Origin: Pseudomonadota bacterium | Lineage (GTDB): Bacteria > Pseudomonadota > Alphaproteobacteria > Acetobacterales > Acetobacteraceae | NCBI GenBank assembly: GCA_021845595.1 | Contig: JAJZVV010000002.1 | Coordinates: 1-64,000 of the forward strand | DNA: 64,000 nt | Reading direction: 5' to 3' | In this document: positions 36,919 to 44,759 of the stretch, one piece after another | Position numbering within the stretch: the stretch's first letter is position 1 | How the letters are laid out: the number at the start of each line of letters is the position of its first letter | Program-made: the position numbers and the translations under genes | Notes under the pieces: model-generated | What the model was told of the DNA's origin: nothing | Seen by the model: the letters and a program-made list of their open reading frames with translations, nothing else | The model's database searches: none

Positions 36919-39900
36919 ATGATCAACGCCTACGCGGATCAGTGGCTGGCCAACTCTGGCCTCTGGAGCGACGCGGCCAACTGGCGGACCGGCCTGCCGG
37001 GTCCGTCGGACATTGCCGCGTTCGCTGCACCGATCGCGGTCAGCGTCACGCTCGACACGCTGGCCGCCATCGCGGCACTGGTGGAGACCGCGGCGCCGGG
37101 GAGCGCGCTCACCGTTTCGGGCAGCTTGTCGCTCTCGGCCGGCGGTGACTGGGCCGGCAGCCTCATCGGCAGCGGCGGCAGCTTGGCGCTGCAAGGCGGC
37201 GTGTTTTCGCTGGCCGGCACGCTCTCGGCCGCCGGTGGCGCGGTATCGATCGGCCCTGGCGCGACCCTGGATCTGTTGGGTCCGGCGAGCCTCGCCACCA
37301 GCGCCGGCGCCGTCCTGACCAATTCCGGCGAGATCGTCACCACCGGCGGCGCCGGCGTCAGCGGCAGCCTGGTCTCCTCCGGCACGCTCCTGGCAACCTT
37401 CGGCGCCTTCGATCTCACCACTGGGACGGCGACGCTGGGCGGCATGATCGCCGGCGCCGGCGCGCTGTTCATCGACGGCCGGCTCGGCGGCAGCGAGTCC
37501 GCGACGCTCGTCGCCGGGGCGACGCTCGCCATCGCCGAGCTCGCCGTAGTCGGCGCCGGCGCGACGCTGAGCCTCGCCGGCAGTGCCACGGATGCCGAGA
37601 CGTTCGCGCTCGGCACCAGCGCGACGCTGGCGCTCGGCGGCCAGACGCTGGGTCTCTCGGGCACGGTGCAGCTCGATGGCACCGTCGCCGGTCCTGGCAG
37701 CCTGTCGCTGACCGGTACGGCGGAGGTCGATGGGCTGGCGCTGCTCCAGCGCACGACGTTGCTCGACGGCGGCGCCATCCTCCAGGATGGCAGTCTCGCC
37801 CTCGCTCCCGGCAGTGCCGTTACGATCGCGGCCGGCGGCAGCGACAGTCTGCTCGGCGCGGTCGCAGTCGGCGCCGGCGGCACGCTGACCAATGCCGGGT
37901 TGCTCGTACGCGACGGGGCCGGCACCAGCGACATCGCCGCGATGTTCGCCTCCAGCGGCAGCATCGCCATCGATCGCGGCACGCTGCGGCTGGACGGGCC
38001 CTCGGTCGCGCTCGGCGGCAGCATAACCGGCGCCGGCACGCTGGCCGTGGCTGGAACCGGGCAAGCCAGCCTCGGAGCCGGGCTCGATCTGGCGGTGGCG
38101 GCGACCGCGCTCGCGGGCACCGGGCAGACCACTCTGGGCGGCGATCTGACTTATGGCGGAGCGCTCTCCATCGCCAGCACCGCCAGCCTCGCGCTCGCCG
38201 GGCATACTCTGACCCTCTCCGGTGCCGCCGCGCTTGGTGGCACTCTGGACGGGCCGGGCCCGATCCAGGTGCACGGCAGCGCAGACGTCAGCGTTCTGGC
38301 CCTGGCGAACGGTGTTACGCTGGTCGACGCCGGGCTGATCACCCAGGATGGCCCGCTCACCCTCGGCGCGGCCGTCAGCGATACCGCTCAGCTCTCCATC
38401 GATGCCGGCGCCACCTGGGCGATCACCGGCGATGCGACGATGTTCGGCCTCGGCACGGTCGCTCTCGCCAACGCCGGCACGCTCGAGAAGACGGGCGCCG
38501 ATGGGGTCAGCCGCATCGGCGCGCCGATCGTCAACACCGGGGCGATCGCCGCGCTGTCCGGGACGCTCGATCTCGCCGGCACGCTCACCAACGATGGCAC
38601 GGTGAGCGTCGCCGGCGGCACCCTGATCACCGAGGCGGCGATCGGCGCCACCGCGGTCGGCACGCTGGCGCTCGCGGGCTCCGGCACGCTCACCGCGCGC
38701 GCCGCGGTTGCGGCAAGCCAGACGATCGCGCTGTCCGGGGCCGGCAACCGTCTTGTCATCGCCGCACCCGGCAGCTTCGGCGCTTCCATCACCGGATTCG
38801 CTGCCGGAGACACGATCGATCTGCCGGGCCTGGCCGCCAACGGGTTTGCCTACGCAGCGGGCGCACTGACCCTGACCGACACGCTGAACGGCCTCACCAC
38901 GACCGTCGCCACCCTGGCCCTCCCGGGCCTCGCCACGCCTGCCGCGCTGGCCCTGCTTGCCGACGGCACCGGCGGCACCGCCCTGGTGCTGAACCATCCG
39001 GGCCCTGCTTTCACCACGCCCGAGACCGCCATCATCGCCGCGACCTGGCAAGCGGGCTCCGGCGACTGGGCGAGCCCGTCCAACTGGCAGCCCGCCGCGG
39101 TGCCCGGCGCCAACGCCAGCGCCACGCTGCCCGCCTCCGGGACGGGCTACAGCGTGAGCTTCGATACCACGGACACGATCGACCAGCTCTTCGCCGGCCC
39201 CGGCGCGAGCCTCGATCTGGCCGGCGGTGCGCTGACGGTAAATGCCGGCGGCAGCTTCGCTGGGAGCCTGGTGCAGACCGCCGGCCTGCTCGACCTGGTC
39301 AGCGGCCTCCCCATCGCCGGGCCTTTCACCCTCGCCGCCGGCGCCACCGCGGAGGTGGACAGCGCGACCCTGGCGCTGGGTGCCGGCACGTTGGCCGGAA
39401 CGATCACCGGCGCCGGTGCTCTCAGTCTCGGCGCCGGTACGGTCACGCTCGCCAGCGGGCTGGCCCTCGGGATCGCCTCGCTCGAAATCGCCGGGGCCGC
39501 CGCACTCGCCACGCCGCTGGGCGTCTCCGCACCGTTCACGCTCGACCAGGGGGCGACGCTGGCGCTCGGCGGGCAGAGCCTGGCGCTGTCGGGACCGGCG
39601 ACGCTGGATGGAACCCTGGCCGGGACCGGCACGCTCACCATCGGCGCCGCGACGCTCGACGGGCTGGCGGCATCGGGCGCGGCGGCGACGCTGGCGGGGA
39701 CCGTGATCGCCGCCGGGCCGGTCAGCCTGGGCGCCGCGCGCCTGGCCAGCGGCGCCGTGCTCGATCTCATCGGCACGGCGGGCTTCGCGGCGGCGAGCCT
39801 GGCCAGTGCCGGCACGATCGAGAAGACCGGCACCTCTGGCGAAGCCACACTCGCGGCGCCGCTCACCGGCGTGGGCGCGATCGCAGTCCAGGCCGGCACC

Positions 39901-42486
39901 CTGATGCTCGCTGGCGGCGGGACCATCGCCGGCGCGCTCTCCGGGCCCGGTGCGCTGTCGCTCGACGGCACGACGACCCTCGCCGCCGGGCTCGGTCTCG
40001 GCGTCGCCGCGCTGGACCTCACCGGTGGCACGACGGCGCTGGAAACGAACGAGAGCTACGCCGGACGCTTCGCGCTCGCGGCCGGCGCAACGCTACTGCC
40101 GGGCGGCCAGGCGCTCACCCTCGCCGGTACCACGAGTCTTGAGGGCGTGATCGGCGGCAGCGGCACGGTGCTCGTCCAGACGACCGCCGCGCTCAACGGG
40201 CTCAGCCTCGCCGGCACCGCCAACCTCATGGACGCCGGCACCATCACCCAGGATGGCGGTCTGACGCTCGGCATGGCGGCGGCCGACGCGCCGGCGCTCA
40301 CCATCGGGGCCGGCGCGCTCTACGACCTGCGCGCGGATGTGCCGATCCTCGCCGCCGCGGGCGGGTCGATCAGCAATGCGGGCACGCTGCGCAAAAGCGG
40401 CGGAGCCGGCCTCACCGATCTTGCAGCCAGCCTCGCCAGCAGTGGCACGATCGCGGTGCAGAGCGGCACACTCAGCCTCACCGGGGGGACCAATAGCCTA
40501 GCCGGCACGGTTTCGGGCGCCGGCGAGCTGGCGCTCGTCGGGCCGGACCAGACCACGCTGCAGCCGGGGCTGGACCTCGCCGTCGCCACGCTCGGCGTGT
40601 TCGGCGGCATGGACCTCGCGCTCACCGCCAATGAAGCGGACGCCGGAGCGATGGCGTTCGACAGCTCGGTCACGCTCGATCTCGCCGGCCATACGCTCAC
40701 CGTGGGCACCGTCGCCGGCCTCGGCGGGCTGCTGCGCGGGCCCGGTACGCTCGCGCTCACCGGCACCGGCGATGCGGCCGGGCTGACGCTGGCCGCCGGC
40801 GCGGTGTTCAGCCTCGCCGGCAGTCTCGCCCAGGATGGCGGAGTGACGCTTGGCACCGGCACCGACGTCGCCATCGCCACCATCGCCGCCGGGGCGACCT
40901 GGGACCTGATCGGCGACGCGCCGCTCGCCGCCGCCGGCAGCACCATGCTCACCAACGCCGGGCTGTTCGAGAAGACCGCGGCGCTCGGGGTCAGCACCAT
41001 CAGTGTGCCGGTGGACAATCTGGCGACGATCCTGGCAGCCGCCGGCAGCCTCGACATCACTGGCTCGCTCGCCAATGACGGCACCCTCCTCGCGCTCGGG
41101 GGAGAGATCAGCGTCGGCCAGTCGCTGGTCGCCGACAGTAGCCAGCGAGGCAGCGCCGTCATCGGCGACGGCGGTACGCTGGCGCTGGCTGCGGCGGCGG
41201 CGAGTTCGCAGAGTCTCGCCTTCACCGGGTCCGGCACGCTGGCGCTGGCAGCGCCGAACGCCGTGCTCGGCACCATCAGCGGCTTCGGCGCGGGCGACGC
41301 CATCGATCTCACGCAACTCGCCTTTGCCCCGGCCAGTGAGAGCGTCGGCTGGTCCGCCGGCACGCTGAGCGTCACCAGCGGGGGCACTGTCGCCGTTGCC
41401 CTGCGCGTCGCCGGGAGCTACGCCGCCGGTGCCTTCACGCTCGCCACCGACTATGCCGCCGGCACCGACATCCTCGCCACCGTGCCCTGCTTCCTTGCCG
41501 GCACGCGGCTGGCGACGCCGGAGGGGCCGGTGCCGGTGCAAGCGCTCGCCGTCGGCATGCGGCTGCTCACCGCATCCGGGCCGGCGCGTCCGATCCGCTG
41601 GATCGGCCGACGCGCCATCGCCTGCCGGCATCACCCGAGGCCCGAGAAGGTGCTGCCGGTGCGCATCCTTGCCGGCGCCTTCGGGCCCGGCCGGCCGACG
41701 CACGATGTCCGGCTTTCGCCCGACCACGCGATTCTCGCCGAGGGCGTGCTGATCCCTGTGCAGCACCTAGTCAATGGGGTCACCATCCACCAGGAGCGGC
41801 CGGACACCGCGCTCTACTACCATATCGAGCTGGCAAGCCACGATGCCGTCCTGGCCGAGGGACTGGCGGTTGAGAGCTATCTCGACAGCGGCAACCGGAC
41901 CCAGTTCGAGAGCGAAGCGGCCATCGCGCTGCACGCCGATTTCGCCGCGCCCGCGCCCGGCGCGGTGGGCGAATATGCGCCGCGGCGCTGTGCCGGGCCG
42001 GAGCTCGCCCGGGTGCGCGCTGATCTACACGCCGAGGTGATGCGGCGTGGCTGGCGGGTCGAGCCGGCGCCCGGACTGGCGTTGGTAGCCGGCGGGCGCG
42101 TGCTGCGGCCAGCGCGGGTGCAGGGGGCGCTTTATCGGTTTCTTCTGCCACCCGGCGGCGGCCCGGTGCGGCTGCTCTCGGCGCGCTTCACCCCGGCCGA
42201 CATCGACCCTGCCAGCAGCGACCGCCGCCGCCTCGGCATCGCGCTCAGCGGGGTGGTGGCCGGGGGGCGCGCGCTCGATCTCGGCGCGCGTGTCTTCGCC
42301 GCCGGGTTTTTCAATGTGGAATCGGAGGCGAACCGGATCTGGCGCTGGACCGATGGCGACGGCACGCTCGCGCTCACCGAGGACATGTCCGGCGGCGTCC
42401 TCGATCTGCGGGTGGCGGCGCTGCCGCGGCGCTGGCAGCTTGCCCGCTTGACGCCATCGCCGGCGCGCGGCTTGCTTGCGTCATGA
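36919..42486 (+). CDS. Giant repeat protein with C-terminal Hint domain
   Basis: This 1855-residue protein is extremely rich in Ala, Gly, Leu, Thr and Ser. Residues 1-690 and 708-1500 form two copies of one module: each opens with a W-x(5)-NW motif (SGLWSDAANW near 14; SGDWASPSNW near 713) and closes with a GDTIDL/GDAIDL block. Within them, NAG-x-(L/F)-x-K and QDG-x-L-T-LG repeats recur (QDG near 291, 475, 1111 and 1305), predicting a long beta-helix. From Cys1524 (PCFLAGTRLATPEGPVPV) a Hedgehog/intein (Hint) domain follows with LSPDHAILAEG; 185 more residues complete the chain. No signal peptide or autotransporter barrel is visible. Similar proteins are multicopy in Acetobacteraceae; function unknown, surface location inferred. 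Confidence 0.85.
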   Translation: MINAYADQWLANSGLWSDAANWRTGLPGPSDIAAFAAPIAVSVTLDTLAAIAALVETAAPGSALTVSGSLSLSAGGDWAGSLIGSGGSLALQGGVFSLAGTLSAAGGAVSIGPGATLDLLGPASLATSAGAVLTNSGEIVTTGGAGVSGSLVSSGTLLATFGAFDLTTGTATLGGMIAGAGALFIDGRLGGSESATLVAGATLAIAELAVVGAGATLSLAGSATDAETFALGTSATLALGGQTLGLSGTVQLDGTVAGPGSLSLTGTAEVDGLALLQRTTLLDGGAILQDGSLALAPGSAVTIAAGGSDSLLGAVAVGAGGTLTNAGLLVRDGAGTSDIAAMFASSGSIAIDRGTLRLDGPSVALGGSITGAGTLAVAGTGQASLGAGLDLAVAATALAGTGQTTLGGDLTYGGALSIASTASLALAGHTLTLSGAAALGGTLDGPGPIQVHGSADVSVLALANGVTLVDAGLITQDGPLTLGAAVSDTAQLSIDAGATWAITGDATMFGLGTVALANAGTLEKTGADGVSRIGAPIVNTGAIAALSGTLDLAGTLTNDGTVSVAGGTLITEAAIGATAVGTLALAGSGTLTARAAVAASQTIALSGAGNRLVIAAPGSFGASITGFAAGDTIDLPGLAANGFAYAAGALTLTDTLNGLTTTVATLALPGLATPAALALLADGTGGTALVLNHPGPAFTTPETAIIAATWQAGSGDWASPSNWQPAAVPGANASATLPASGTGYSVSFDTTDTIDQLFAGPGASLDLAGGALTVNAGGSFAGSLVQTAGLLDLVSGLPIAGPFTLAAGATAEVDSATLALGAGTLAGTITGAGALSLGAGTVTLASGLALGIASLEIAGAAALATPLGVSAPFTLDQGATLALGGQSLALSGPATLDGTLAGTGTLTIGAATLDGLAASGAAATLAGTVIAAGPVSLGAARLASGAVLDLIGTAGFAAASLASAGTIEKTGTSGEATLAAPLTGVGAIAVQAGTLMLAGGGTIAGALSGPGALSLDGTTTLAAGLGLGVAALDLTGGTTALETNESYAGRFALAAGATLLPGGQALTLAGTTSLEGVIGGSGTVLVQTTAALNGLSLAGTANLMDAGTITQDGGLTLGMAAADAPALTIGAGALYDLRADVPILAAAGGSISNAGTLRKSGGAGLTDLAASLASSGTIAVQSGTLSLTGGTNSLAGTVSGAGELALVGPDQTTLQPGLDLAVATLGVFGGMDLALTANEADAGAMAFDSSVTLDLAGHTLTVGTVAGLGGLLRGPGTLALTGTGDAAGLTLAAGAVFSLAGSLAQDGGVTLGTGTDVAIATIAAGATWDLIGDAPLAAAGSTMLTNAGLFEKTAALGVSTISVPVDNLATILAAAGSLDITGSLANDGTLLALGGEISVGQSLVADSSQRGSAVIGDGGTLALAAAAASSQSLAFTGSGTLALAAPNAVLGTISGFGAGDAIDLTQLAFAPASESVGWSAGTLSVTSGGTVAVALRVAGSYAAGAFTLATDYAAGTDILATVPCFLAGTRLATPEGPVPVQALAVGMRLLTASGPARPIRWIGRRAIACRHHPRPEKVLPVRILAGAFGPGRPTHDVRLSPDHAILAEGVLIPVQHLVNGVTIHQERPDTALYYHIELASHDAVLAEGLAVESYLDSGNRTQFESEAAIALHADFAAPAPGAVGEYAPRRCAGPELARVRADLHAEVMRRGWRVEPAPGLALVAGGRVLRPARVQGALYRFLLPPGGGPVRLLSARFTPADIDPASSDRRRLGIALSGVVAGGRALDLGARVFAAGFFNVESEANRIWRWTDGDGTLALTEDMSGGVLDLRVAALPRRWQLARLTPSPARGLLAS

Positions 42487-42656
42487 ATGGGGACAAGACC
42501 GGGAAGCCCGCCAAGCCGAGCCGGCCAGTGCTGCGCCCGGAGGCCGCCGCCGAGCGGGCCGCCCGTCTCGCCCGTGAGGCCGAGGCGCTGCGGGCCAATC
42601 TTCGCCGGCGCAAGGACCAGGCACGGCGCTGCACTGCCGCGCCGGCGGAGGAGTAG
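42483..42656 (+). CDS. Small basic protein, 57 residues
   Basis: This short gene starts with an ATG that overlaps the stop of the Hint gene (ATGA) and ends at TAG 42654-42656. The product begins MNGDKTGKPAKPSRPVLRPE and continues as a charged Ala/Arg/Glu helix (ERAARLAREAEALRANLRRR), ending in KDQARRCTAAPAEE. It has no signal peptide or membrane segment and would form one amphipathic helix. The N-formylglutamate amidohydrolase starts 10 bases later, so the three genes form a compact unit. I do not recognise a function. Tight spacing on both sides and matching codon use support it. Confidence 0.7.
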   Translation: MNGDKTGKPAKPSRPVLRPEAAAERAARLAREAEALRANLRRRKDQARRCTAAPAEE

Positions 42657-42666
42657 CCCCGCGACG

Positions 42667-43548
42667 ATGGACGGAGTTGCGCCCGCCGCCGAAGCGCCGA
42701 TCGACGCGGCCGAACCGTTCGCGCTGTTTCGCCCGGCGCGCCAGACGGTGCCGATCGTCTTCACTTCGCCCCACTCGGGGCGCGACTATCCGGCGGAGTT
42801 CCTCGCCGCCGCACGGCTCGATCCGCTCGGGCTGCGGCGCAGCGAGGACAGCTTTGTCGATGAGCTGTTCAGCGCCGCCCCCGCGCACGGCGCCCCGCTG
42901 CTCGCCGCCACCTTCCCGCGCGCCTTCTGCGATCCCAATCGCGAGGCCTGGGAACTCGATCCGGCGATGTTCGAGGATCCACTGCCCGCCTGGGTCAATG
43001 TCGCCAGCCCGCGCGTCGGCGCCGGGCTCGGCACCATCGCGCGCGTCGTCGCCTCCGGCGAGCCGATCTATCGCGGCAAGCTGCGCTTCGCCGAGGCCGA
43101 GCGGCGGGTGCAGCGCTACTGGCAGCGCTTCCATGCCGAACTGGCGAGCCTGATCGCCGCGACCCGGGCGCAGTTCGGCGGCTGTCTGTTGATCGACTGC
43201 CACTCGATGCCCTCGGGCAGCGCGGAGGGAAGGGGGCGGGTGGAATTCGTGCTCGGCGATGCGCACGGGACCACCTGCGCGCCCCCGATCACCCGCCTGG
43301 TCGAGCGGCTCATCGCTGAACGCGGCCACGCGGTGCGGCGCAACGACCCCTATGCCGGTGGCTTCATCACCCGCCATTACGGCCGACCGCGCGACCGCGT
43401 GCAGGCGCTGCAGATCGAAATCGCGCGCCACCTCTACATGGACGAGGCTCGGATCGAGAAGCTGCCGTGCTTCGCGGCGATGCAGGCCGAGATCGCCGCC
43501 ATCATCGCCGGCCTCGTTCGCCAGGGTCCAGCGCTGCTCAGTGGATAA
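42667..43548 (+). CDS. N-formylglutamate amidohydrolase family protein
   Basis: This 293-residue hydrolase belongs to the HutG2/FGase family, which releases formate from N-formyl-L-glutamate in one form of histidine breakdown. Family blocks are VFTSPHSGRDYP, DSFVDELF, PRAFCDPNREAWELDP, LLIDCHSMPS, LGDAHGTTC and NDPYAGGFITRHYG. No hut genes are nearby, so the physiological substrate may differ. The ATG at 42667 is preferred over the open frame upstream, which overlaps the 57-codon gene. A hairpin beginning 5 bases after its stop belongs mainly to the antisense small RNA but may end this transcript too. Confidence 0.88.
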   Translation: MDGVAPAAEAPIDAAEPFALFRPARQTVPIVFTSPHSGRDYPAEFLAAARLDPLGLRRSEDSFVDELFSAAPAHGAPLLAATFPRAFCDPNREAWELDPAMFEDPLPAWVNVASPRVGAGLGTIARVVASGEPIYRGKLRFAEAERRVQRYWQRFHAELASLIAATRAQFGGCLLIDCHSMPSGSAEGRGRVEFVLGDAHGTTCAPPITRLVERLIAERGHAVRRNDPYAGGFITRHYGRPRDRVQALQIEIARHLYMDEARIEKLPCFAAMQAEIAAIIAGLVRQGPALLSG

Positions 43549-43576
43549 AAAAATGGCGGCGCTTATGGCGCCGCCA
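43546..43576 (-). terminator. Intrinsic terminator of the small RNA
   Basis: Arms at 43554-43562 and 43568-43576 pair perfectly over 9 G/C-rich bases around a 5-base loop. On the minus strand the stem is followed by seven T (seven A at 43547-43553 on the plus strand), a textbook intrinsic terminator. On the plus strand only AGTTTA follows, so it would be weak for the amidohydrolase transcript. Confidence 0.85.
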
Positions 43577-43632
43577 AGTTTAGGGAGGAAACGTCCAAGA
43601 AAGCAACATCGCGGACTAGCCGCCTTGCTGCG
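43546..43632 (-). ncRNA. Candidate trans-acting small RNA with anti-Shine-Dalgarno core
   Basis: Read on the minus strand, this roughly 87-base segment has the layout of an alphaproteobacterial Hfq-type small RNA. A 5' stem pairs GCGG with CCGC, extended by GCAA/TTGC (43592-43628 region). A single-stranded middle contains GTTTCCTCCCTAAAC, complementary to ribosome-binding sites. A 9-bp terminator stem (TGGCGGCGC arms) is followed directly by seven T. A promoter with 17-base spacing lies just upstream. The anti-SD core and size resemble the alpha-r8 (MmgR) and alpha-r14 families, which act on phasin and other mRNAs; this family link is from memory. PhaR-like sites overlap its start. The 5' end is estimated. 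Confidence 0.65.
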
Positions 43633-43702
43633 ATGCACAATGTAAGGGTGCTGAATGCCCGATGCAAGCGGATTTTTGCAATGCTGTGCCGCGTGCAGCG
43701 CA
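43629..43702. promoter_or_regulatory. Small RNA promoter and PhaR-like sites
   Basis: On the minus strand TTGCAT (43662-43667) and TACATT (43639-43644) are spaced by exactly 17 bases, placing a start near 43632. Two sites of the form TGC-N3-GCA lie at 43629-43637, over the start, and at 43694-43702; the intervening stretch is dense in TGC and GCA. PhaR, the polyhydroxybutyrate-sensing repressor, is known to bind TGC-N3/4-GCA repeats. Regulation by PhaR is inferred. Confidence 0.45.
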
Positions 43703-43784
43703 GCATACCGATGTAGTGGGGCATTCGGCCCGGCGCTGTCGGGACGATAAGGGTTTCCTAAGCCCGGCCGCGCGAGAATGGCGC

Positions 43785-44759
43785 ATGGTTTCGCGTCTGA
43801 GCGTCGCGCTGCTGGCGATCCTGCTGCCGCTCGCCCCTGAGCGGGCGGGCGCGGAGCCGCCTTGGCTGCTGGCCATGCCGCATGCGCGGCCAGCCGGCGG
43901 CGATGGCGTGTCAACCCCTGCGCCGCCGATTCCAGCGGTGGCGATCCCCGGGGTCGTTATTCCAGGCGTGGCGATTTCGGGGCCGGCCCCGCAGGCGCTC
44001 GGCGCTGCGACGCTGCCGGCCGGATCGGCCTGGACCCTGTGCCGCCCGGCCATCGCCCGGGCGGAGCGGGCCTATGGCCTGCCCGATCATCTGCTCGCCG
44101 CCATCGCCCGGGTCGAGAGTGGCCGCCGCGCGCCGGGCAGCGGGGCGTGGCAAGCATGGCCCTGGACCATCGACGCGGAGGGCGAGGGCCAGTTCCTGGA
44201 CAGCAAACCGGCCGCCATCGCCGCCGTGCGGGCCTTGCAGGCGCGTGGGGTCGCCTCGATCGATGTCGGGTGCCTGCAAGTCAACCTGATGCACCACCCG
44301 CACGCCTTCGCCTCGCTGGACGAAGCCTTCGACCCCGACGCCAATGCCGCCTACGCCGCGCGGTTTCTCACCCAGCTCTATCAGCAGGCGGGCAGTTGGC
44401 CGCAGGCGGCGGCGCTGTATCACTCCGCGACCCCGGCGCTGGCCGCCGACTACCAGCGCAAGGTCCTGGCCGCCTGGCCGGAGGAACGCGCCTACGCCGG
44501 GTTGGGGCCGGCGCCGGGGATGGTTTCACCGCCCCTGGCCGCGTCCTACTCCGGCGCCGGCGTCGCCACGCTGAGCGCATTTGCCCGCGCTCCGCCCGCG
44601 CGGGTGATCCCGCTCGCCGGCGCTGCTCCCGCCGCGGCGGCGCTGCGGCGCGATCTCGCGTCCTACCGGGCGGCGCCGGTGCTGCTCGCCGCCGCCCCGC
44701 CGCCGGCGGCGCCGAGCGAACTCGCGGGCCCGGCCCCCGTGTTGCGCCCGTTGCGCTGA
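43785..44759 (+). CDS. Lytic transglycosylase, SLT domain
   Basis: This 324-residue secreted protein has a Sec signal peptide (MVSRLSVALLAILLPLAPER..., about 1-25), a Pro/Val-rich linker, then an SLT (family 1) lytic transglycosylase domain at about 90-220. The catalytic glutamate is in AAIARVESGRR; IDVGCLQVNLMHHP and QLYQQAGSWPQAAALYHS follow. The C-terminal 100 residues are Ala/Pro-rich and low complexity. The ATG at 43785 begins the signal peptide; an upstream ATG at 43662 is in frame but would bury it. The last 97 bases overlap the 3' end of the opposing epimerase gene. Confidence 0.88.
   Translation: MVSRLSVALLAILLPLAPERAGAEPPWLLAMPHARPAGGDGVSTPAPPIPAVAIPGVVIPGVAISGPAPQALGAATLPAGSAWTLCRPAIARAERAYGLPDHLLAAIARVESGRRAPGSGAWQAWPWTIDAEGEGQFLDSKPAAIAAVRALQARGVASIDVGCLQVNLMHHPHAFASLDEAFDPDANAAYAARFLTQLYQQAGSWPQAAALYHSATPALAADYQRKVLAAWPEERAYAGLGPAPGMVSPPLAASYSGAGVATLSAFARAPPARVIPLAGAAPAAAALRRDLASYRAAPVLLAAAPPPAAPSELAGPAPVLRPLR

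Follow-up and report, generated by a model that had tools for sequence, protein, structure and literature searches.

A probable PhaR-controlled alpha-r8 (MmgR/SuhB) small RNA gene convergent with an N-formylglutamate amidohydrolase gene in an Acetobacteraceae genome

The DNA analyzed here (the window) comprises the first 64,000 nucleotides of contig JAJZVV010000002.1 of an Acetobacteraceae bacterium. In a covariance-model search of this 64-kb window, positions 43540-43611 of the minus strand gave a full-length match (model positions 1-77) to the Rfam family RF00519 (suhB, that is, MmgR/alpha-r8), with 56.2 bits (E 6.8e-9) against a curated gathering score of 41 bits; it was the sole match at the gathering score. 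On this basis we judge it close to certain that the locus belongs to the alpha-r8 family of small RNAs (sRNAs). The predicted promoter of the gene carries boxes of the type bound by PhaR, a regulator of the storage polymer polyhydroxybutyrate (PHB), and a gene for N-formylglutamate amidohydrolase (FGase) converges on it. The features of the locus are as follows:

43540-43611, minus strand: RF00519 match from the covariance model
43547-43632, minus strand: predicted transcript of ~86 nt, its start placed from the promoter and its end at the T-run
43662-43667, minus strand: predicted -35 element TTGCAT (in relatives often CTTGC[AG]), from the sequence and its recurrence in relatives
43639-43644, minus strand: predicted -10 element TACATT (in relatives often CTANAT-like), on the same grounds
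43629-43637, minus strand: PhaR-type box TGCATCGCA over the predicted start site, recurring in relatives (compare CAATTGTGCACCGCAGCATTA of Sinorhizobium meliloti mmgR)
43677-43685, minus strand: degenerate box AGCATTGCA with one mismatch, lying 48 bp upstream of the start-site one, where many relatives have a matching box
43694-43702, minus strand: additional perfect box TGCGCTGCA, 65 bp upstream of the one over the start site
43603-43631, minus strand: 5' hairpin GCAGCA..(loop)..TGTTGC of 10 pairs, its first three bases being the 3' half of the PhaR-type box
43582-43591, minus strand: seed 10-mer UUUCCUCCCU, mostly unpaired by folding
43554-43576, minus strand: terminator hairpin of 9 pairs, then seven T at 43553-43547, from a terminator scan and compensatory pairs in relatives
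42487-43548, plus strand: convergent FGase gene (PF05013), its stop codon overlapping the T-run

A first-pass annotation, made from the sequence alone, had described most of these parts, and they are present as described: a -35/-10 pair with 17-base spacing (TTGCAT-N17-TACATT), a 5' stem-loop (43631-43603), an exposed motif (UUUCCUCCCU, with a mean unpaired probability of 0.72 in the window), a G/C-rich hairpin with seven T (43576-43554), and a TGC-N3-GCA motif over the predicted start (43637-43629), which also recurs in relatives. Its guess of a resemblance to MmgR/alpha-r8 was confirmed by the Rfam search that it had proposed. Its further suggestion that the RNA might be new was not borne out: the family is printed as occurring throughout the Alphaproteobacteria apart from Rickettsiales and as mostly adjoining an FGase gene (PMC12559287, section 7), and repression of mmgR by AniA/PhaR is published. 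The locus is therefore a new member of a known RNA class, for which PhaR control is already known in one species. Among other Rfam candidates, the Pseudomonas rpsL leader (RF01773; 21.6 bits, cut-off 70) and the Staphylococcus sRNA71 (17.2 bits, cut-off 50) scored far too low, and two further families were also far under threshold. The open reading frames (ORFs) overlapping the sRNA locus are mechanical calls only, and no family search of them was made.

Of 44 boxed sequences collected, 42 (window included) were folded, the longer RNAs L050 and L055 being left out. In 40 of the 42, the 5' end folds into a hairpin with 8 or more pairs, with a mean z of -3.1 against shuffles; these are per-sequence folds, which do not amount to a covariation test and treat related sequences as separate. 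The recurrence of this hairpin, whose first arm GCAGCA opens with the 3' half of the box, supports a predicted transcription start at the box, ~20 nt upstream of the 5' end given by Rfam. RNAalifold did not detect the 5' hairpin, as the loops were misaligned in the MAFFT alignment on which it was run; what it did return was the inner portion of the terminator and a small stem that hardly varies. The terminator scan found 1 terminator-like site against 0.5 expected, and in relatives the terminator shows compensatory pairs (columns 66-78: CG 22, UA 15, AU 4, UG 1). A short frame ATG...TFPP-stop occurs in only 7 of the 42 boxed sequences, and a conserved peptide or coding role is thus unlikely. 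Taken by itself, the 157-nt fold is unexceptional (z -1.31, matched by 19 of 200 shuffles). The promoter scan, the fold and the box are each unconvincing alone; it is the Rfam match, together with the recurrence in relatives, that places the feature above chance.

The neighboring gene at 42487-43548 matches PF05013 (E 1.5e-73), so that the sRNA gene occupies the usual location of its family; the closest FGase relative in the genome collection, at 99% identity, is from an Acetobacteraceae metagenome-assembled genome. RF00519 matches above the gathering score were present at 54 of the best 80 of 581 named FGase loci (18, 15, 13 and 8 of 20 in four successive batches), and among these the RNA lies opposite the FGase strand in all 54, as it does in 29 of 29 FGase-linked copies from whole genomes. 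Two of the 26 loci without the RNA (L199 and L204) end less than 50 nt from FGase; the others have 0.7-2.5 kb of flank. This convergent layout, with the FGase stop codon overlapping the T-run at the window locus, would also be expected if the element acted in cis, as an antisense RNA or terminator of the FGase mRNA. We regard that explanation as very improbable: the gap between the RNA and the end of the FGase match varies from -5 to 2,434 nt (<150 nt in 39 of the 54 loci, at least 150 nt in 15), 60 of 89 analyzed copies have no FGase match in the flank that was fetched (1.5-2 kb at most), the plus strand has no T-run after the hairpin, and MmgR and SisA are described as trans-acting (PMC12559287, PMC8401924).

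The family was found in 39 of 60 genomes (own included) at E 0.001, and above the cut-off in 37. Of the 92 matches fetched, 89 were analyzed, while L054, L067 and L069, one of them FGase-linked, were dropped for lack of CCTCCC. The host genome has two RF00519 copies. The second (L002 1501-1571; G000:C23:254814-254884, plus strand; 47.4 bits) has no start-site box; it carries a box, TGCACTGCA, at -93, upstream of its -35 element, and both further genomes of the genus have an upstream box at that position (L048, L053). A paralogue set marked by UGACUGGCGUUUCCUCCC (e.g., L039, L050, L057, L071 and L088), with 21 copies, none FGase-linked, is also found in this family of genomes. These share the seed and terminator of the window copy and match RF00519, some below gathering, but unlike the FGase-linked copies they have boxes in 0 of 21 at -58..-40 and 1 of 21 at -112..-86; a few are boxed elsewhere, such as L050 and L072 near -64. 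In a class-wide search, a stringent pattern (TTGTGCNNNGCAGCA, 20-50 bases, CGTTTCCTCCCT) matched 7 of 385 genomes (own included) and its reversed control none; six of the matching genomes are outside the family, and the pattern is too strict to yield a rate. Seven genomes of the same family, of 1.9-3.5 Mb (G010, G015, G024, G027, G031, G032 and G034), gave no alpha-r8, phaR or PhaC_N match, and they are an exception to the printed claim that only Rickettsiales lack the family (PMC12559287).

A strict sigma-70 scan of 43300-43960 found no promoter, and the hexamers are weak by themselves; they become credible because they recur in relatives. The boxes were analyzed by position relative to CCTCCC, with a loose (YGCRNYGCR) and a strict (TGC-N3-GCA) definition. 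At -58..-40, the loose box is present in 30 and the strict box in 27 of 89 copies, whereas in three equally wide control windows between -172 and -118 a box is present in 0 or 1 of 86-88. Further boxes cluster between -115 and -79 (20/89 and 29/89 in two windows). The start-site box, a box at -112..-86, and at least one of the two were found in 16, 18 and 24 of 29 FGase-linked copies, and in 14, 21 and 27 of 60 unlinked copies, respectively. At the named FGase loci, 21 of 54 copies carry a strict box at -60..-40, against a shuffle mean of 0.275. When both sets were reduced to 138 distinct promoters, 34 had both boxes, 24 the start-site box only and 33 the upstream box only; where both are present, they are 47-49 bp apart in 30 of 34, and exactly 48 bp apart in 21. 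In its context, the window box (ACATTGTGCATCGCAGCAAGG) is nearly identical to that of S. meliloti mmgR (CAATTGTGCACCGCAGCATTA). What this analysis would add to the known family is a start-site box whose 3' half begins the conserved 5' hairpin and a putative operator pair mostly 47-49 bp apart. A small and partly ill-matched literature search found nothing on alpha-r8 promoters in Acetobacteraceae, and we do not claim that the operator pair is unpublished.

In S. meliloti, the mmgR promoter contains a PhaR site (TTGTGCAYCGCAGCA) shifted by His6-PhaR in electrophoretic mobility shift assays, and the window box is nearly identical to it; the mmgR sequence CAATTGTGCACCGCAGCATTA is described as "efficiently bound", with shifts lost when the palindrome was excluded or mutated (PMC12542648). 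AniA/PhaR represses mmgR and NtrC activates it, and loss of the MmgR core raises PHB and the phasins PhaP1 and PhaP2, their mRNAs being unchanged (PMC8401924). The window RNA has the covariance model, the 10-mer and the Rho-independent terminator in common with MmgR. It differs from MmgR in that its box lies just after the -10 element, over the predicted start, which would give a transcript of ~86 nt with its own 5' hairpin, and in that no long seed match is found at the phasin starts of its genome.

The components of a PhaR circuit are encoded in the host genome. A phaR gene is present (PF07879 at G000:C28:78221-78403, E 1.4e-30, in a 233-aa ORF), as are PhaC_N matches and three phasin matches, and one phasin promoter has a box before TTGACA and another after the -10 region, 58 bp apart. 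The genomic matches of TTGTGCNNNGCA include this phasin promoter, the second alpha-r8 copy, a dehydrogenase E1 component, an EF-Tu-type GTPase (TypA-like by our own reading) and an AMP-binding enzyme; in accounts of S. meliloti, the products of pdh, which is under positive control, and of typA are among the PhaR-affected modules. Among 35 other genomes of the family, alpha-r8 and phaR co-occur in 27, alpha-r8 alone is found in one (G011), phaR alone in none and neither in seven, which also lack a PhaC_N match (p 1.2e-6, a value overstated because the seven may be one clade, so that phylogeny confounds). In G011, phaR, a PhaC_N match and the box are all absent. Over all 59 relatives, the corresponding numbers are 36 with both, two with alpha-r8 only, three with phaR only and 18 with neither. 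This pattern fits a link with PHB. Taken as a whole, the recurring boxes, the near-identity to a site tested by mobility shift, the presence of phaR and the co-occurrence make PhaR control of the predicted promoter likely; the PhaR control suggested by the first-pass annotation is in this sense supported rather than shown.

The direct pairing partner of MmgR in S. meliloti is given as not identified (PMC12559287). We regard the candidate targets below as leads only. Perfect complements of the seed (AGGGAGGAAA) occur eight times in the host genome outside the two RNA genes, and five of them lie 2-7 nt before the starts of genes for a CN-hydrolase (amidase), an ABM-domain protein, an NHL protein, a BKACE enzyme and an ammonium transporter (amtB) paralogue. 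The transporter and CN-hydrolase sites are also found in G001 and G002, the other three in G001 only. In addition, a 12-base complement of the seed region (AGGGAGGAAACG) lies 32-33 nt ahead of the likely ATG of an Lrp/AsnC-type gene in all three genus genomes (L129, L269, L280). With a start region defined as a start codon 1-12 nt away and an ORF of at least 80 aa, and with sites inside alpha-r8 genes (2, 3, 2 and 1) dropped, 27 of 33 AGGGAGGAAA sites in four alpha-r8-positive genomes (G000, G001, G002, G004) are at start regions, against 1 of 25 in four negative ones (G010, G024, G027, G032); on visual inspection, four of these appear spurious, namely two ORFs of 82 aa and two GTG codons spaced by 12 nt ahead of the Lrp gene. 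For the control AAGGAGGAAA, the corresponding counts are 8 of 15 (three positive genomes) and 4 of 25 (four negative genomes), and much of the AGGGAGGAAA contrast is therefore a Shine-Dalgarno habit. In a larger comparison, given below, the control for Shine-Dalgarno bias was not significant.

These candidates raise the possibility, compatible with PhaR control, that the sRNA serves mainly nitrogen uptake and not carbon storage. The perfect complements at the transporter paralogue and amidase starts and the complement ~32 bases ahead of the Lrp/AsnC gene, each in all three genus genomes looked at, would agree with this, as would the nitrogen response of mmgR in S. meliloti (PMC8401924). The amtB paralogue with the site, however, was seen only in the genus, the best AmtB match in 21 other family genomes is 61-71% identical and by eye of the signal-peptide form, and the non-significant Shine-Dalgarno control applies here too; we consider such a main role unlikely.

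Starting from what is observed (family membership, synteny, recurring boxes and hairpin, and the phaR, phaC and phasin genes), the scheme known from S. meliloti most likely applies to the window genome, with free PhaR repressing, granules relieving repression, and the RNA damping translation of selected mRNAs; PhaR binding, transcription and its start, Hfq dependence and the targets are predicted components. In the absence of PHB, PhaR on the start-site box would block transcription, and a second PhaR site ~48 bp upstream would probably be occupied as well. As granules form, PhaR would be drawn away and the sRNA made together with phasin. The RNA would fold into the 5' hairpin, the single-stranded UUUCCUCCCU and the terminator, and with Hfq the single-stranded part may pair with G/A-rich start regions of mRNAs, lowering their translation. 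We thus consider it quite probable that the locus is an FGase-linked, trans-acting alpha-r8 sRNA gene, gated by PHB granules through PhaR and acting by seed pairing with mRNA starts. A more elaborate version is possible but doubtful: the FGase-linked alpha-r8 RNAs of Acetobacteraceae might form a granule-gated, two-operator PhaR switch (at the start site and ahead of the -35 element, 47-49 bp apart), co-induced with phasin and repressing the amtB paralogue, the amidase and the Lrp-type leader, through which carbon storage would feed back on nitrogen assimilation.

Several observations weigh against the PhaR-gated, seed-pairing reading. TGC-N3-GCA is at chance level in the window (39 found, 33.9 expected), and TTGTGCNNNGCA, with 19 matches in the host genome, is little commoner than its reversed pattern (14). 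Neither box window is occupied in 5 of 29 linked copies and in 47 of the 138 distinct promoters, and the window itself falls in the "start-site box only" class because of the single mismatch in its 48-bp upstream box. Among 38 genomes with fetched copies, four have no boxed copy, three of them phaR-positive (G038, G049 and G047, the last with a single copy lacking CCTCCC, in which the box position could not be placed). Five genomes (G003, G006, G029, G042, G044) have alpha-r8 and phaR with no PhaC_N match, and the confounding by phylogeny noted above belongs here as well. As for pairing, the ratio of GGGAGGAAA to AGGAGGAAA at a fixed distance before ATG, with genomes classed by alpha-r8 match and one row that is the RNA gene itself (G011:C227) dropped, was 57:32 with and 3:6 without alpha-r8 in the family (p 0.086), 8:13 and 10:9, the other way, outside it, and 65:45 and 13:15, not significant, over all 60 genomes (p 0.29). 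The limitation of phasin proposed in the first pass is not supported at the level of base pairing: at the start regions of the three host phasin ORFs, at most five contiguous bases (GGAGG) match the seed by eye. An indirect action on phasin would be compatible with this, and in S. meliloti, too, direct pairing between MmgR and phasin mRNAs is not established. RNAduplex predictions of phasin pairing gave long, implausible duplexes and were set aside.

A rival reading is that the RNA is not under PhaR at all. If the box recurred merely as an overlap of core promoter, start site and hairpin, and another regulator such as NtrC, the activator of S. meliloti mmgR (PMC8401924), set the level, it would be understandable that GCAGCA, which starts in the box, doubles as the hairpin's first arm and that some phaR-positive genomes have no boxed copy. 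However, the first half of the box (TTGTGC) precedes the predicted start and so would be outside the RNA; ahead of the -35 element, relatives repeatedly carry another box, even where the start-site box is missing (33 of the 138 promoters); the host phasin promoter has the same element as the sRNA promoter; and G011, the only phaR-negative family genome with alpha-r8, is without a box. Regulation of this kind without PhaR is accordingly quite unlikely, and PhaR control remains the preferred reading.

The closest parallel besides MmgR is found in Caulobacter crescentus, where SisA-SisD, alpha-r8 siblings sponged by CrfA, share UUUCCUCCCU and the terminator with the window RNA (PMC12559287). Like the window RNA, SisA lies downstream of an FGase gene; it represses its targets, TonB-dependent receptors and others, through the seed, and Hfq aids SisA-CrfA pairing (PMC12559287, sections 7, 9 and 10). 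That paper reports no shared upstream motif for sisA-D, whereas many FGase-linked copies here share PhaR-type boxes. The recurring operator sequences carry the PhaR-sRNA link, tested in one rhizobium, to a distant family, and they predict that loss of the regulator of the storage polymer should free the sRNA. Moreover, the FGase-linked, mostly boxed copies and the paralogue set without start-site boxes provide a natural contrast within one family, suited to working out which of the alpha-r8 copies have a role in carbon metabolism, a point left to future work in PMC12559287.

Several features of the surroundings were also observed. In many of the named FGase loci (L173-L252), an opposite-strand tRNA gene lies ahead of FGase; ARAGORN found none in the window between 40000 and 48000. 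Directly upstream of FGase in the window, 36919-42486 encodes a repetitive protein of 1855 aa with a C-terminal Hint_2 domain (PF13403). On the other side, the first ATG of an ORF with an SLT domain (43662-44759) lies inside the sRNA promoter. A start farther into the frame, at an ATG near 43785 that opens a signal-peptide-like sequence, looks likelier by eye; if this is right, the two genes share a divergent promoter region.
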